Below, one piece after another: positions 1 through 13,648 of a stretch of DNA of 14,108 nucleotides. Numbering within the stretch: position 1 is the first letter of the stretch; each line of letters begins with the position of its first letter. The stretch spans positions 1 through 14,108 of the forward strand of contig PSPG01000015.1 in assembly GCA_003193925.1 (NCBI GenBank), read 5' to 3'. The stretch is from Candidatus Thalassarchaeum betae. GTDB lineage: Archaea; Thermoplasmatota; Poseidoniia; Poseidoniales; Thalassarchaeaceae. The position numbers were made by a program, and so were the translations under genes. The notes under the pieces are model-generated. The model saw only the letters and a list, made by a program, of their open reading frames with translations. It had not been told where the DNA came from and did no database searches.

Positions 1-242
1 TCCTCTTTGATGAGCAGGAATTCCACACCCATCCACTCGAGTTCCATCCCACCGTACTTGCGGTAGATGACTCGATCGCCTTCGGCGACGTTCTCGACTT
101 CCGGACCGACCGCGACGACGGTTCCGACCGTCATCTTCTCGCGTGCCTCCTCTGGCAGCAGCAGGCCGCTCGTGGTCTGCTCTGCAGCTTGCTCAATCTC
201 GACCAGTACCATGCTCGCCAACGGTTCGATTCCAACACTCAT
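1..242 (-). CDS. groES: GroES (Cpn10) co-chaperonin, N-terminal part, cut by window edge
   Basis: Co-chaperonin that caps the GroEL (group I chaperonin) folding chamber in the cytoplasm. Reading the minus strand from the ATG at 242-240 gives about 80 codons with no stop before the window edge. The protein starts MSVGIEPLASMVLVEIEQ. A mobile-loop-like stretch follows (EQTTSGLLLPEEAREK, about residues 18-33), then the Cpn10 core TVGTVVAVGPEVENV and the family signature GDRVIYRKYGGMELE near residue 60. A full GroES is about 95 residues, so only about 15 are missing. The start is supported by an AGGAG Shine-Dalgarno 9 nt upstream and a TATA-like box near 311-317. GroES is a bacterial-type protein that occurs only in some archaea, so it was probably acquired by transfer (inference). 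A groEL gene may lie beyond the edge but is not visible here. Confidence 0.9.
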   Translation of the reverse strand, partial: MSVGIEPLASMVLVEIEQAAEQTTSGLLLPEEAREKMTVGTVVAVGPEVENVAEGDRVIYRKYGGMELEWMGVEFLLIKE

Positions 243-251
243 GTCCGCTCT

Positions 252-256
252 CTCCT
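252..256 (-). promoter_or_regulatory. Shine-Dalgarno of groES
   Basis: AGGAG on the minus strand, 9 nt before the groES ATG at 242. It fixes that start and implies a leadered mRNA, which agrees with the TATA-like box about 70 nt upstream. Several other genes here look leaderless. Confidence 0.55.
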
Positions 257-308
257 GACATCCACAGCGCACAATACGCAGCGGACGGGACCTCGGAGAA
301 AAAGAGGC

Positions 309-318
309 TACTTAAAGC
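309..318 (-). promoter_or_regulatory. TATA-like box for groES
   Basis: The minus strand has CTTTAAG (311-317) in an otherwise GC-rich stretch. An archaeal start site about 25 nt downstream would lie near 288, giving a 5' leader of about 45 nt that contains the AGGAG. No clear purine-rich BRE precedes it. The box lies just past the stop of the uvrA remnant (334-336). Confidence 0.4.
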
Positions 319-333
319 CGACGAGATTGACTC

Positions 334-492
334 TCACAGCATTCGTCCGAGATATCTCCCTGTGTAGGAGGTAGGATGCTCAGCGACCAGTTCCGGTGAC
401 CCTTCGGCGACTACAAATCCACCACCCTCGCCCCCTTCAGGGCCGAGGTCGATGACCCAGCAAGTCATCGATGTGGGTGAGGGGCTCACTCG
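334..492 (-). pseudogene. uvrA: uvrA C-terminal remnant
   Basis: Excinuclease ABC subunit A is a two-ATPase-domain damage-recognition protein of about 940 residues. Here only its extreme C-terminus survives. The minus-strand frame from about 468 to the TGA at 334-336 reads [20 protein letters not shown], then [21 protein letters not shown]. This matches the conserved UvrA ending ([11 protein letters not shown] plus a terminal TGRYL). The Walker motifs, signature motifs and zinc fingers are absent: the frame hits a TGA at 493-495 and the HAD gene ends there. Just upstream, CACATCGATG could be a decayed trace of the preceding H-x-x-D-V stretch with small deletions (inference). About 44 codons from an internal ATG at 468 remain open, but a functional product is unlikely. 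Confidence 0.8.
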
Positions 493-935
493 TCATCGAA
501 GACCTCGATCTCGACGCTTCGCCTGACCAGGTCGGTGAACTTGGAGTTGAACCTCGTGGCCCTGACGATGTGATTGTCGATCCAGTGGTAGTTGCCCCCC
601 CTGGGCTTGCCCATCAGCAGATGGTGGTAGGCGAAGCCGTGCCTGCCCAACCAGCGCTCGGTGAGCTCGCGGTGCTCCTCCGTGCGCGCGGAGAAGAAAG
701 TGATGATGTGGCCCTCGTCGTACCATCGGTTGATCGTGGCCAAGGAGTCCGGGTAGACCTCTGCAGCCTCCATCCTCTCAGGGGACTCGTTCGGGATGTC
801 CTCGCCCACCGTCCCGTCGATGTCGATGAGGTAGTTCTTCATCCCCTCTGGCAGGATCGGGCTGAGCCGCTTGCCCGACTCGTCAATCGTCTCAACGAGG
901 TCCACCATGCCTCTCAACGGCGCGATTCCGTCCAT
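486..935 (-). CDS. HAD-superfamily hydrolase (probable phosphatase)
   Basis: Haloacid-dehalogenase-fold hydrolase, probably a small-molecule phosphatase; the substrate is unknown. Counting from the ATG at 935, motif I is [11 protein letters not shown] with D38 (nucleophile) and D40 (acid/base). Motif II is the Ser in [11 protein letters not shown]. Motif III is the Lys of [14 protein letters not shown], with a nearby Asp for Mg2+. At about 149 residues it is a compact HAD without a large cap. Other possible starts are ATG 953 (six residues longer) and ATG 842 ([11 protein letters not shown]). The open frame runs back to 1175, but residues upstream of 953 are Arg-rich and overlap the divergent gene, so they are rejected. 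A TATA-like TTCTTAAC (990-997) or GAATTC (958-963) may drive it. The uvrA stub follows directly downstream. Confidence 0.75.
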
Positions 936-2468: not shown

Positions 2469-4196
2469 ATGGTCGTGCGCTCGCGCGGCAGCATCGCCCT
2501 GCTACTGGTCGTGCTGATGGTCTCAGCACCGCTCAGCGGCTGCTTCGGAGAGGAGGAAACCGAGGCTAGCGCCAGCAGCCTCAGCATCACCCCCAAGGTG
2601 CTCGAGGCGGGCGTCTTCCAGCAAGTCGAGCTGAGCGCCAAGGCGGGGATGTCCGTCTTCGTGCCCTACCTCGTCATCGACCCGGCCACCGGATTCGTGC
2701 AGAACTCGACCGTGGTCGACCTGCCTTCGGGCTCCAGCATCACCCTGGAGGTCCTCGCGCCGCCGCGGGCCGATGCGATGGTCCTCATGGTCGGTGCCAA
2801 GGGGCGCGAGCACTGGCCGATCCGTGATTCGAACGAGTCGTGGATGACTTGGATGATGCACGATGGCGACAAGGGCGATGCGGGCAACGGCATCGTGCGC
2901 GTGGCGCATGGCGAGAACTCCACTCTGGATACCGTGAACCACAGCATCCAGCGTGGCGGGCGCGTCTCGGTCAAGACAGTGCTGTCCCTGCGCCCCTCGC
3001 TGATCGGGCTTGATCAGGGTGGGGCGCACTCGAGCGGCCTGCTGCACGGCAGGACGGTCTACGAACGGCTCTTCGAGATCACCGACCCAGCGATATCGAT
3101 CTTTGACGTCGACGGACGCGAGGGTTACTACGACCGTTGGGCGGGACAGGGCAACCCAGCCTACGAGGACGCGGCGATGTATCTGATCGACGAGATGGAG
3201 TCGTTCGGCCTGGAGGTCATGGCGCACCGCTTCGAGTTCACCGACATATTCGCCCACCAGAACCCCGAGGCCTACAACATCTGTGGCTACAAATGGGGCA
3301 GTGAGTTTGTGAATGAATGGCTGGTTTTCGGCGCACACTTCGACGTAGCACCCCCCGCGAACGCTGTCATACTCGACCCCCACACCACCGGTTCACGCAC
3401 CTACGGCACTCGCGTCGGCGCGTACGACAACAGCGCTGGCACCTCGATGGTGCTCGAGACCGCCCGCGTGCTTGCCCAGATCGAGAGCCGCCGGACGATG
3501 GTGTTCTGCCTATGGTCCGGCGAGGAGGGTGGCACGCGAGGCAGCGACTACTGGACCGACGAGTACGTCCGACAGGACCACCCCGAGGTCACGGTCACGA
3601 ACTACATCAATCTCGACATGGCCGGGGTCAACTGGCCGGGCGGAGGTGGTGCCCCGCACGGCGACCCGGACCCGCAGATCGACGAGAACGGCTACCCCAA
3701 GGACTCCGAGGTCTGGCCGATGCGAGTCTACATCGGGCCGAGCGTCGAGCACGACCAGATCAACCAGCCCGGCATGGTGGGAATCTCGAATTGGATCGGT
3801 GCCGACGCGCTCGGGCTGGAGCAGCAGATGGGCACGCTGGTCGGGGTGAACCAATCGGCAGACACCTGGAAGACCGACACGTGGCTGGACATGGACCGTC
3901 CTGAGATCATCGTCTACGAGGACACCACCGCGAGGAGCGACCACGCCAGCTTCCAGGAAAACCTCGGCACCGTGACCGTTGGCTTCGGCGGCCTTGTCGA
4001 CGGCTACTGGTGCTACCACCAGACCTGCGACACGCTCGAGGAGATGGAGGACTGGATGGGCACCACCGGCAAGGACTACGGCGAGGAGAACACCGGGGTC
4101 GCCAATCTGGTCAACAGCCTAGACTTGATCACGTGGTGGGCGCTGATGATCTTCTTCCACTGTGACGAGACCCCTATAATCAACGAATACCTCTGA
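2469..4196 (+). CDS. Secreted M28-family zinc aminopeptidase, lipoprotein
   Basis: Extracellular metallopeptidase, predicted to trim peptides at the cell surface. The N-terminus is a signal peptide with lipobox LSGC (lipidated C25) followed by an acidic EEE stretch. Residues 26 to about 270 form an extra N-terminal region with beta-rich segments. The M28 catalytic domain has all di-zinc ligands: H290 (GAHFD), bridging D320 (GAYDNSAG), E352-E353 (general base and ligand, SGEEGG), D383 (INLDM) and H517 (CYHQTCDT). The family motif SDHASF (D491-H492) is also present. At 575 residues it is longer than a minimal M28 domain (about 300) because of the N-terminal region. The ATG at 2469 gives an ideal signal peptide. 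Substrate and endo/exo mode are unknown, though most relatives are aminopeptidases. Confidence 0.9.
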   Translation: MVVRSRGSIALLLVVLMVSAPLSGCFGEEETEASASSLSITPKVLEAGVFQQVELSAKAGMSVFVPYLVIDPATGFVQNSTVVDLPSGSSITLEVLAPPRADAMVLMVGAKGREHWPIRDSNESWMTWMMHDGDKGDAGNGIVRVAHGENSTLDTVNHSIQRGGRVSVKTVLSLRPSLIGLDQGGAHSSGLLHGRTVYERLFEITDPAISIFDVDGREGYYDRWAGQGNPAYEDAAMYLIDEMESFGLEVMAHRFEFTDIFAHQNPEAYNICGYKWGSEFVNEWLVFGAHFDVAPPANAVILDPHTTGSRTYGTRVGAYDNSAGTSMVLETARVLAQIESRRTMVFCLWSGEEGGTRGSDYWTDEYVRQDHPEVTVTNYINLDMAGVNWPGGGGAPHGDPDPQIDENGYPKDSEVWPMRVYIGPSVEHDQINQPGMVGISNWIGADALGLEQQMGTLVGVNQSADTWKTDTWLDMDRPEIIVYEDTTARSDHASFQENLGTVTVGFGGLVDGYWCYHQTCDTLEEMEDWMGTTGKDYGEENTGVANLVNSLDLITWWALMIFFHCDETPIINEYL

Positions 4197-6881: not shown

Positions 6882-9161
6882 TCATTTCTTGCGGCCGGTG
6901 TAGACCAACAGACCGAGCAGGGCGGCCGCTACTGCGGTCAGTACGAAGAGCACGATATCGATCCCCCCCTCCTCCCACTTGGTGGGGTCATCCGGGTAGA
7001 AATCCGCGTTGTCGCCCACCCTATCGCCGTCGGTGTCCTCTGTCTCGGCGGGATCCAGAGGGAAAGCATCGCTGTTGTCGCCGATGCCATCCCCGTCGGT
7101 GTCTATCCACTCGAGCGGGTCGGCAGGGAACGCGTCCATGTTGTCCCCAAAGCCGTCCCCGTCGGTGTCTACCGTTTCGCTGGCGTCCCCGGGGAAGGCG
7201 TCTTGGTTGTCGCCTACCCCGTCCCCGTCGGTGTCGGCCCACTCTGAGGGGTCGTCTGGGAAGGCGTCTTGGTTGTCGCCTACCCCGTCCCCGTCGGTAT
7301 CGGCCCACTCTGAGGGGTCCTCTGGGAAGACATCGGCGTTGTCACCCACCCCGTCCCCGTCGGAATCGGCCCACTCTGAGGAATCATCGGGGAACGAATC
7401 GGCGTTGTCACCCACCCCGTCCCCGTCGGAATCGGCCCACTCCGAGGGATCCTGAGGAAATTCGTCTCGGTTGTCGCCGACCCCGTCAGCATCACTGTCG
7501 AGGGTCTCCGCAGCATCCTCCGGGAACGCATCGGCGTTGTCACCCACCCCATCACCATCGCTGTCGTCCCATTCGGTGGAGTCGAGCGGGAACTGATCGT
7601 CGCCGTCGGGGTCGCCGTCCCCATCGTCATCGTCGTCGAGCAGGTCGCACTCCCAGTCGCTGTCGGTGTCCGTCGGGACATCTGCGCGGTCCATCGGGTC
7701 GGTCTGGCAACTCAGCTCGTCCGCATCGGACCAGCCATCCCCGTCGTCATCCGCATCCGCGTTGTCGCCTACCCCGTCACCGTCGATGTCGGAGTGCTCG
7801 TCCGGATCGAGGGGGAAGGCGTCCTGTGCGTCATCCCAACCGTCGTTATCGTCGTCGGTGTCGGCGTTGTCCCCAACCCCGTCCCCATCCGTGTCGACGG
7901 TCTCGTTAGCATCGAGCGGGAAGGCGTCGTAGAAGTCCGCTACGCCGTCGTTGTCGTCGTCAGCGTCCGAATTGTCCCCTGTCCCGTCGCCGTCAGCATC
8001 GGACCACTCGTACGGATTATTGGGGAAGGCATCGCTAGGGACACAGACCCCGTCACCATCGCTGTCGATCCAGCCGGTCGGGTCGTCATCGCATTGGTCC
8101 GTATTGTCCCCGACCTTGTCCCCGTCCGCATCCGCCCACTCGTTGGGGTTGTAGATGAAGGCGTCCACATCGTCGCGGTAGCCGTCGCCGTCGGAGTCAC
8201 GTGAGAAGTCCTCGAGCGCCCAACTAAGACTCTCATCCGCCCATCCCGGGTCGTTCAGTGGGGGGGCGTGAGTCCCGTCGTTGATTCTCCAGTGCGCCAC
8301 CCGGTTGCCATCGGCGCAGTTCAGGTGCTCGAGATTGTCCGTCTCGGGGGCTCCGTCCGAGCCGGTCAGGTCGATGCTGCCGAGGTCTGTCCAGCTCGCA
8401 TCACAGCCTGACCTGTCGGCCCAGAAGGCGGTCGACTGTGGGGCAGAAGGATACGTATTGCCTCCGGTCATCGACCCACCGGCGTACTGTATGACGCTGT
8501 CAAGGGAGCCGTGGACATGCAGGATGTTCGGCCTTCCAGTATCGGGGCAGTCGTTGGCGAAATCATCCCACGTCGCCCCGTTCAGCGACACAATAGACTC
8601 GATTATCCCGCCTTGGTCGCACGCCATTCTGTGGCTCATGAACGCGCCGTTAGAGTGTCCTATCAACACAACTCCCTCTGGGTCCGCCCCGTAGTTCTGG
8701 ATGGCCTGGTCGATCAGGCCCGCGAGGAAAGCGACATCGTCCACCTCGGTGCCGAACAGGTTGCAGCAGGCCTCGGTGGCGTTCCAGAACCTCATGCCTA
8801 TGATATTCATAGTGCCGTCTGGGGTGAGCAGCAGGTGCTCGTTCTGGTGGACACTGTCATACAGGCTCATCCACCAAGCGTTGAAAAAACCGGAACTGGA
8901 GTACCCATGCAGACCGACGACCAGTGGGAGGGGGCGATCGTAGACGTGCCCGCCCGGCATGGTAAGCGTCGCGGACCTCCCCTCGGAGGTGAATGTGGCA
9001 GTGGTGTGCTCGTTGGTGTAGTTGATTGGGCCGTAGCCATCGTTTGAGTCGGTCCAGAGCCTGTCCTCGATTTCCTCGACCTGCGCCTGCTCACCGCCCG
9101 GCAGTCCGAATGCCATTATCATCAGGCAGACAAGAATAGGTGCGTAGGGGCGATTGCTCAC
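6882..9161 (-). CDS. Surface-anchored PHB-depolymerase/feruloyl-esterase-like hydrolase with TSP3 repeats
   Basis: Secreted alpha/beta hydrolase of 759 residues. A signal peptide (about 1-26) precedes the esterase domain (about 55-315). The oxyanion region is VVGLHGYSSSG. The nucleophile elbow is GHSNG with S170, the acid is probably D221 (HGSLDSV), and the base is H298 (GTHAPPL), matching the LpqC / poly(3-hydroxybutyrate) depolymerase family. Residues about 318-730 are Asp-rich thrombospondin type 3-like repeats (D-x-D-G-D-G-x-G-D-N), which bind calcium and act as a rigid stalk. A C-terminal helix (IDIVLFVLTAVAAALLGLLV) and GRKK tail anchor it in the membrane. The domain order places the enzyme away from the membrane. 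The true substrate (polyester, feruloyl ester or other) is unknown. A TATA-like TTCTTAG lies about 25 nt before ATG 9161. Confidence 0.87.
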   Translation of the reverse strand: MSNRPYAPILVCLMIMAFGLPGGEQAQVEEIEDRLWTDSNDGYGPINYTNEHTTATFTSEGRSATLTMPGGHVYDRPLPLVVGLHGYSSSGFFNAWWMSLYDSVHQNEHLLLTPDGTMNIIGMRFWNATEACCNLFGTEVDDVAFLAGLIDQAIQNYGADPEGVVLIGHSNGAFMSHRMACDQGGIIESIVSLNGATWDDFANDCPDTGRPNILHVHGSLDSVIQYAGGSMTGGNTYPSAPQSTAFWADRSGCDASWTDLGSIDLTGSDGAPETDNLEHLNCADGNRVAHWRINDGTHAPPLNDPGWADESLSWALEDFSRDSDGDGYRDDVDAFIYNPNEWADADGDKVGDNTDQCDDDPTGWIDSDGDGVCVPSDAFPNNPYEWSDADGDGTGDNSDADDDNDGVADFYDAFPLDANETVDTDGDGVGDNADTDDDNDGWDDAQDAFPLDPDEHSDIDGDGVGDNADADDDGDGWSDADELSCQTDPMDRADVPTDTDSDWECDLLDDDDDGDGDPDGDDQFPLDSTEWDDSDGDGVGDNADAFPEDAAETLDSDADGVGDNRDEFPQDPSEWADSDGDGVGDNADSFPDDSSEWADSDGDGVGDNADVFPEDPSEWADTDGDGVGDNQDAFPDDPSEWADTDGDGVGDNQDAFPGDASETVDTDGDGFGDNMDAFPADPLEWIDTDGDGIGDNSDAFPLDPAETEDTDGDRVGDNADFYPDDPTKWEEGGIDIVLFVLTAVAAALLGLLVYTGRKK
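6973..7583 (-). repeat. 66-bp-period tandem repeat array (TSP3 stalk)
   Basis: About nine regular 22-codon units, each encoding a variant of D-x-D-G-D-G-V-G-D-N-x-D-x-F-P-x-D-x-x-E-W. Units at 7195-7260 and 7261-7326 differ at only 2 of 66 bases, and units starting at 7327 and 7393 share about 45 identical bases. The near-identity at DNA level points to recent duplication. Older, more divergent repeats continue to about 8208. Confidence 0.85.
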
Positions 9162-12832: not shown

Positions 12833-13648
12833 TCACAGTTCTGACATCACATAGTCCACCGCATTGCGGAAGATCGCCATGCCCTCGCCCTCACCGTGCT
12901 CCAGATTCTCGCGCGTCCAGGTGGCACCGAGCCAGGTCGAGTGGTTGGCCTCCGGATGGGGCATCAGGCCGAAGACGAGGCCCGAGGGATCGCAAACTCC
13001 GGCGATGTTACGCCAGCTCTGGTTGGGCGAGGTCGGGTAGGGTAGAATCTCGTCTGATGTCGAGGGGAACTGCGATTCTGGGTCGACGTAGCGCACCGCC
13101 AGCTGGCCCGAGTCTGCCCACTTGTCGAGCAGAGGCGCGTCGTCGGTGACGAACTTGCCCTCGCCGTGGCGCACAGGCACTCGGATGCGCTGCATCCCCT
13201 TGGTCCAGATGCAAGGGCTGTCGGCATCGAACTCGAGGGTGACCCATCGGTCCTCGTAGTGGCCGCTGTCGTTGAGAGCGAGGGATGCGGTCTGGGTCAG
13301 GCTGACCTCGTCGTCGCCCGGCAGCAGACCCATCTTGACAAGGGCCTGGAAGCCGTTGCAGATCCCGATGATCGGTTTGCCGTCCTTGACGAAGTCTCGC
13401 ACTTGCTCGCGCAGACCGAAGCGCAGGCGGTTGCCCAACAGTCGGCCGCTGCCGAGGTGGTCGCCGAAGGAGAAGCCTCCCGGGACGGCCATGATGTGGT
13501 AGTCTTCCAGGCTGGCCTCGCCGCTGACCAGCCGGTTGACGTGAATTCTGTCCGCAGAGGCGCCGGCCATCTCGAAGACCGCCATGGTCTCCAACTCACA
13601 ATTGATCCCGAAGCCGGATATGACTGCCACGCGCGGCTTGCCTCCCAT
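12833..13648 (-). CDS. purQ: Phosphoribosylformylglycinamidine synthase subunit PurQ (glutaminase)
   Basis: Glutamine amidotransferase subunit of FGAM synthase, step 4 of purine synthesis; it releases ammonia from glutamine for PurL. The 271 residues form a class I GATase domain. The N-terminus is RVAVISGFGINCELET, the oxyanion strand is VPGGFSFGDHLGSG, the catalytic Cys sits in GICNGFQAL (about residue 97), and the His/Glu pair is in MPHPEANHS near the C-terminus. The ATG at 13648 overlaps the purL stop by one base (TGATG), with a GGTGAT Shine-Dalgarno (13654-13659) inside purL. A GTG at 13651 adds one codon. At 271 residues it is longer than the common PurQ of about 225, resembling archaeal forms that have inserts before the C-terminal motif. 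Confidence 0.93.
   Translation of the reverse strand: MGGKPRVAVISGFGINCELETMAVFEMAGASADRIHVNRLVSGEASLEDYHIMAVPGGFSFGDHLGSGRLLGNRLRFGLREQVRDFVKDGKPIIGICNGFQALVKMGLLPGDDEVSLTQTASLALNDSGHYEDRWVTLEFDADSPCIWTKGMQRIRVPVRHGEGKFVTDDAPLLDKWADSGQLAVRYVDPESQFPSTSDEILPYPTSPNQSWRNIAGVCDPSGLVFGLMPHPEANHSTWLGATWTRENLEHGEGEGMAIFRNAVDYVMSEL

Follow-up and report, generated by a model that had tools for sequence, protein, structure and literature searches.

Transfer from a sister genus as the probable origin of a uvrA tail beside groES in Candidatus Thalassarchaeum betae

The DNA analysed here (the window) is a contig of 14,108 nucleotides from the metagenome-assembled genome of Candidatus Thalassarchaeum betae (G000; 23 contigs, 92% complete). 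The genus of this archaeon is referred to as g1 and a sister genus of Poseidoniales as g2; G013 and G040 are g2 genomes, and 12 congeners were compared with G000. The contig begins within groES, and the features that follow are listed below.

3 to 242, minus strand: groES (Cpn10), incomplete at the contig start; belongs with the uvrA fragment to one putatively acquired block
243 to 333, minus strand: uvrA-groES intergenic region of 91 bp, conserved in donor-type loci
334 to about 460, minus strand: 3' end of a uvrA gene of apparent sister-genus type, 41 codons and a stop; probable passenger fragment
458 to 460, minus strand: junction of native and putatively foreign DNA; the CTG is assignable to either side
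458 to 498, minus strand: start of a class-III aminotransferase gene, about 13 codons, overlapping the HAD stop
486 to 935, minus strand (stop at 486-488): HAD-like phosphatase gene, native flank, with positionally conserved orthologues in congeners

The minus strand of 334-492 matches positions 899-941 of the 943 positions of the UvrA profile NF001503 (E value of 3.5e-14), with the conserved C-terminal motif of UvrA present. This match is far above chance, and the reading frame is undamaged. A full UvrA has about 940 amino acids, with zinc fingers and two ATPase domains that carry Walker A/B and signature motifs. All of these are missing from the 41 codons of the stub, which scores 51.8 bits against the profile, for which the cut-off is 1147; it is a fragment of UvrA and not a member of the UvrA family. 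The initial annotation had described about 43 codons of the UvrA C terminus at 334-492, abutting the HAD gene and lying just upstream of groES. The UvrA identity and the groES side of this description hold, but the uvrA part extends only over 334-460, and the letters at about 458-488 belong to the 3' end of the HAD gene and the beginning of another truncated gene. The stub is included in a 51-codon frame, the GTG start of which overlaps the HAD stop.

The second, complete uvrA that the initial annotation had proposed to look for in the same genome is present on the 252-kb contig C7 of G000 (17741-20632; 1281 bits), and DNA repair should therefore be unaffected. Nor is a "bacterial-type" uvrA remarkable in this group, as had been supposed: a search among relatives gave matches in 36 of 40, with a full-length frame in most. 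At the DNA level, the stub is 87.6% identical to the uvrA on contig C197 of G040, 82.9% identical to that of G013, and 63.5% identical to the intact uvrA of G000 itself. In a uvrA tree based on 129 nucleotide columns, the stub groups with the two g2 uvrA ends, with supports (82/91 and 91/89) that are below the strong threshold. By its sequence affinity, the stub appears to be a uvrA of the g2 type.

The neighboring groES gene encodes a Cpn10 protein (PF00166; E value of 3.6e-19 over 80 residues up to the contig edge) that is 97% identical in amino acid sequence to the GroES of G013. The region between the two genes (243-333) is presumed to be the groES promoter region; it contains a TATA-like element at about 309-318 (TTTAAGTAG on the minus strand), and its sequence is conserved in an alignment of the window, contigs C9 and C197 of G040, and G013. 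groES was found in 0 of the 12 congeners of G000, and groEL in none of these 12 either. The G000 assembly likewise contains no groEL; the window contig ends inside groES.

Positions 1-460 of the window align without gaps, and with 87% DNA identity, to positions 11443-11902 of contig C30 of G013, where the end of an intact uvrA is followed by groES, groEL, and purL; this alignment does not continue past 460. Beginning at 475/486, the matches are to genomes of the window's own genus, with g1 identities of 73-83%, whereas the window genes outside the block reach only 68-74% identity to G013 (over the longer stretches). The block is hence closer to g2 than vertical descent predicts. With this affinity, its absence from the congeners (0/12), and its sharp boundary at 460, it has the features of an acquired segment; it is visible only up to position 1, the contig edge. 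Thus, of the two possibilities raised in the initial annotation, arrival of the tail alone with a transferred segment is supported, in that the tail, the intergenic promoter region, and groES form a single block that resembles the sister-genus locus throughout.

On the other side of the boundary, the HAD protein is 74% identical in amino acid sequence to the orthologues found at the same place in congeners. In G010, G002, G006, and G007, the start of a class-III aminotransferase gene (420 to 424 amino acids) overlaps the HAD stop. The window keeps about 13 codons of this start (counterpart MTSDPLTPLDELL), directly followed by the uvrA tail. The match is short: beyond the HAD stop, 17 of 29 nucleotides agree with G010, a score that was equalled by 57 of 100,000 shuffles. 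There is no other close copy of the aminotransferase in the G000 assembly (best match, 34% identity). An intact uvrA at this site in related genomes, for which the initial annotation had suggested a synteny check, was seen beside HAD in no congener examined; several have the aminotransferase there.

Other observations concern the same neighborhood. On contig C4 of G012 (L104), at about 13311-13475, the aminotransferase gene is cut to a 44-amino-acid frame in which the initial 25 codons are joined to the final 19 (...GKALS up to the join, followed by KEDVDTTLHLLNESLGQSL); this scar is an internal deletion that arose independently at this site. Positions 6882-9161 of the window encode a large, secreted protein that is hydrolase-like and rich in calcium-binding TSP3-type repeats, which match many places in the genome. 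The hydrolase-like gene lies on the opposite side of HAD in G012 and G007, indicating that the locus has been rearranged. Displacement of a neighboring MarC gene was considered and set aside, because only three congeners have a close MarC orthologue and the absence of MarC is therefore uninformative.

Identity to the uvrA of G040 contig C197 starts at 460, and the last shared bases are the CTG at 458-460. This may be a 3-nucleotide microhomology, which would be consistent with end joining. The same junction exists in the middle of a contig of a Poseidoniales metagenome-assembled genome (G040 contig C9, CATMIM010000009.1), in which 1,060 of 1,073 positions across the junction are identical to the window. 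Over 7 kb, the two contigs are about 97% identical, with one divergent stretch at 1810-2341. This stretch holds a small membrane-protein gene that aligns poorly to its counterpart on C9, between flanks that are about 97% identical, which suggests an allele replacement.

That the junction is an assembly artefact, with sister-genus reads misjoined to a HAD contig near the contig end, might be suspected from its position only 460 bp from the start of a contig in a metagenome-assembled genome and from the lack of groES in the congeners. We consider this very unlikely, because a breakpoint that is the same base for base lies mid-contig in an independent assembly with differences at 13 of 1,073 sites and 3% divergence over 7 kb, and chimerism would not be expected to give two non-identical contigs a shared breakpoint. 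Moreover, the stub is 12% divergent from the g2 uvrA of that same genome (G040) and hence does not simply consist of reads from that gene. The assembly error that the initial annotation had named as a refuting case is thereby argued against. An equally slight probability is assigned to misbinning of the contig, by which the HAD-stub-groES arrangement would come from a g2 genome and not from the G000 organism. The second copy of the junction does sit in the g2 bin G040; however, the window contig and C7 share an exact 91-bp overlap through which the purL frame is continuous, which supports the assignment of the window contig to G000. In addition, the best matches of the window genes are in g1 genomes (73-83%, versus 68-74% for g2), and purL on C7 is 81% identical to that of G005 (g1) versus 75% to g2.

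The contigs of G040 complicate the picture. On C9, groES is succeeded by groEL and purL genes of the g2 type, and the g2-binned G040 also has an intact uvrA on C197, together with the start of groES. The end of C197 (L102, bases 3466-3520) is identical to C9 over exactly 55 bp, as is characteristic of a branch in the assembly graph, here at groES. It may be that the groEL-purL half of C9 comes from G040 itself, attached via shared groES k-mers, and for this reason we only infer the co-transfer of groEL. The presence of the junction contig in a g2 bin reflects either a contaminated bin or a more complex history.

In our preferred reading, which we regard as likely, the stub is passenger DNA left behind by horizontal gene transfer: a g2 segment was joined into the aminotransferase gene, and the resident uvrA lies elsewhere. 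The donor would belong to the sister genus of Poseidoniales with the locus order uvrA-groES-groEL-purL. The segment would have comprised the final 41 uvrA codons, the promoter region of groES, and groES itself (with groEL very probably following beyond the contig edge), and illegitimate, perhaps microhomology-assisted, recombination would have attached it at codon 13 of the class-III aminotransferase gene, the start of which overlaps the HAD stop. The direction of transfer and the end-joining mechanism are likewise what we infer from the arrangement of the locus. A two-step variant, in which the whole uvrA-groES-groEL unit came in and most of uvrA and the aminotransferase gene were deleted afterwards, is possible and would lead to the same product. 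A viral vector as the source was rejected, as no GroEL relative in viral contigs exceeds 53% identity to the donor-type GroEL. Insertion mediated by a tRNA or by repeats received no support; neither the window nor G040 contig C9 contains a tRNA, and positions 1-1000 contain no inverted repeat.

The initial annotation had also offered the alternative that a uvrA was present and then deleted. By such an in-place deletion, a full uvrA formerly located between HAD and groES would have lost all but its tail. Such a loss would leave just what is seen, a uvrA tail with groES after it; the donor-type locus has uvrA at that place, and deletion scars do occur at this site, as the 44 residues of aminotransferase kept in G012 attest. 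We nevertheless find this history unlikely, since the neighbor of HAD in the congeners is the aminotransferase gene and not uvrA, its start is kept at the window junction, and the stub is of the g2 type in a genome with a resident uvrA elsewhere. It is extremely improbable, in turn, that the 51-codon frame encodes a functional small protein. Both stub-bearing strains (G000 and G040 contig C9) have kept the frame open, with a single silent difference between them, but every catalytic motif of UvrA is missing from it, and the differences between the stub and the end of the G040 uvrA (9 synonymous-codon and 7 non-synonymous-codon differences) show no special constraint in a sequence too short to judge. 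The nearly unchanged state of the stub in both strains implies that it predates their split. The event, called recent in the initial annotation, can be so described in relative terms only, given the 12% distance of the stub from the nearest intact donor-type uvrA and its near identity in the two strains. The stub probably has no function of its own and may have been kept since it lies directly upstream of the groES promoter and would be without cost.

A strong groEL match is present in 39 of the 148 genomes of the family, belonging to genera g2, g7, g8, g9, and g10, and in none of g1. We suggest with considerable reserve that groES-groEL may be a free cassette with its own promoter, moving between Marine Group II genera and being end-joined into non-essential genes, which it replaces; if true, such a mobile cassette would explain the patchy distribution. 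In the literature on Marine Group II and GroEL, we found nothing on the uvrA-tail/groES locus. Read as a passenger scrap, the stub is a well-resolved yet ordinary gene-transfer scar. It would offer a base-resolved view of transfer between archaeal genera, in which both the donor gene and the recipient gene, though truncated, are still legible, and the cargo gained is a chaperonin gene otherwise missing from the recipient genus. It also cautions that gene stubs need not mean gene loss in place.

Compared with UvrA proper (excinuclease ABC subunit A, NF001503/TIGR00630), the stub has the last 43 model positions in common and has none of the ATPase Walker motifs, the signature, or the zinc modules. 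The g2 uvrA-groES-groEL-purL locus (G013 contig C30, and G040 contig C197 for uvrA and the groES start) agrees with the window in gene order, strand, and promoter region; there, however, uvrA is full length (1017 amino acids on C197), whereas in the window 41 codons are fused to the HAD/aminotransferase flank. No integrase, tRNA site, or repeat was found at the window junction; the other (left) end of the segment lies outside the window. The locus nonetheless resembles the gene fragments that border horizontally acquired segments, in which, as here, a truncated donor gene meets a truncated recipient gene with little or no homology at the junction.
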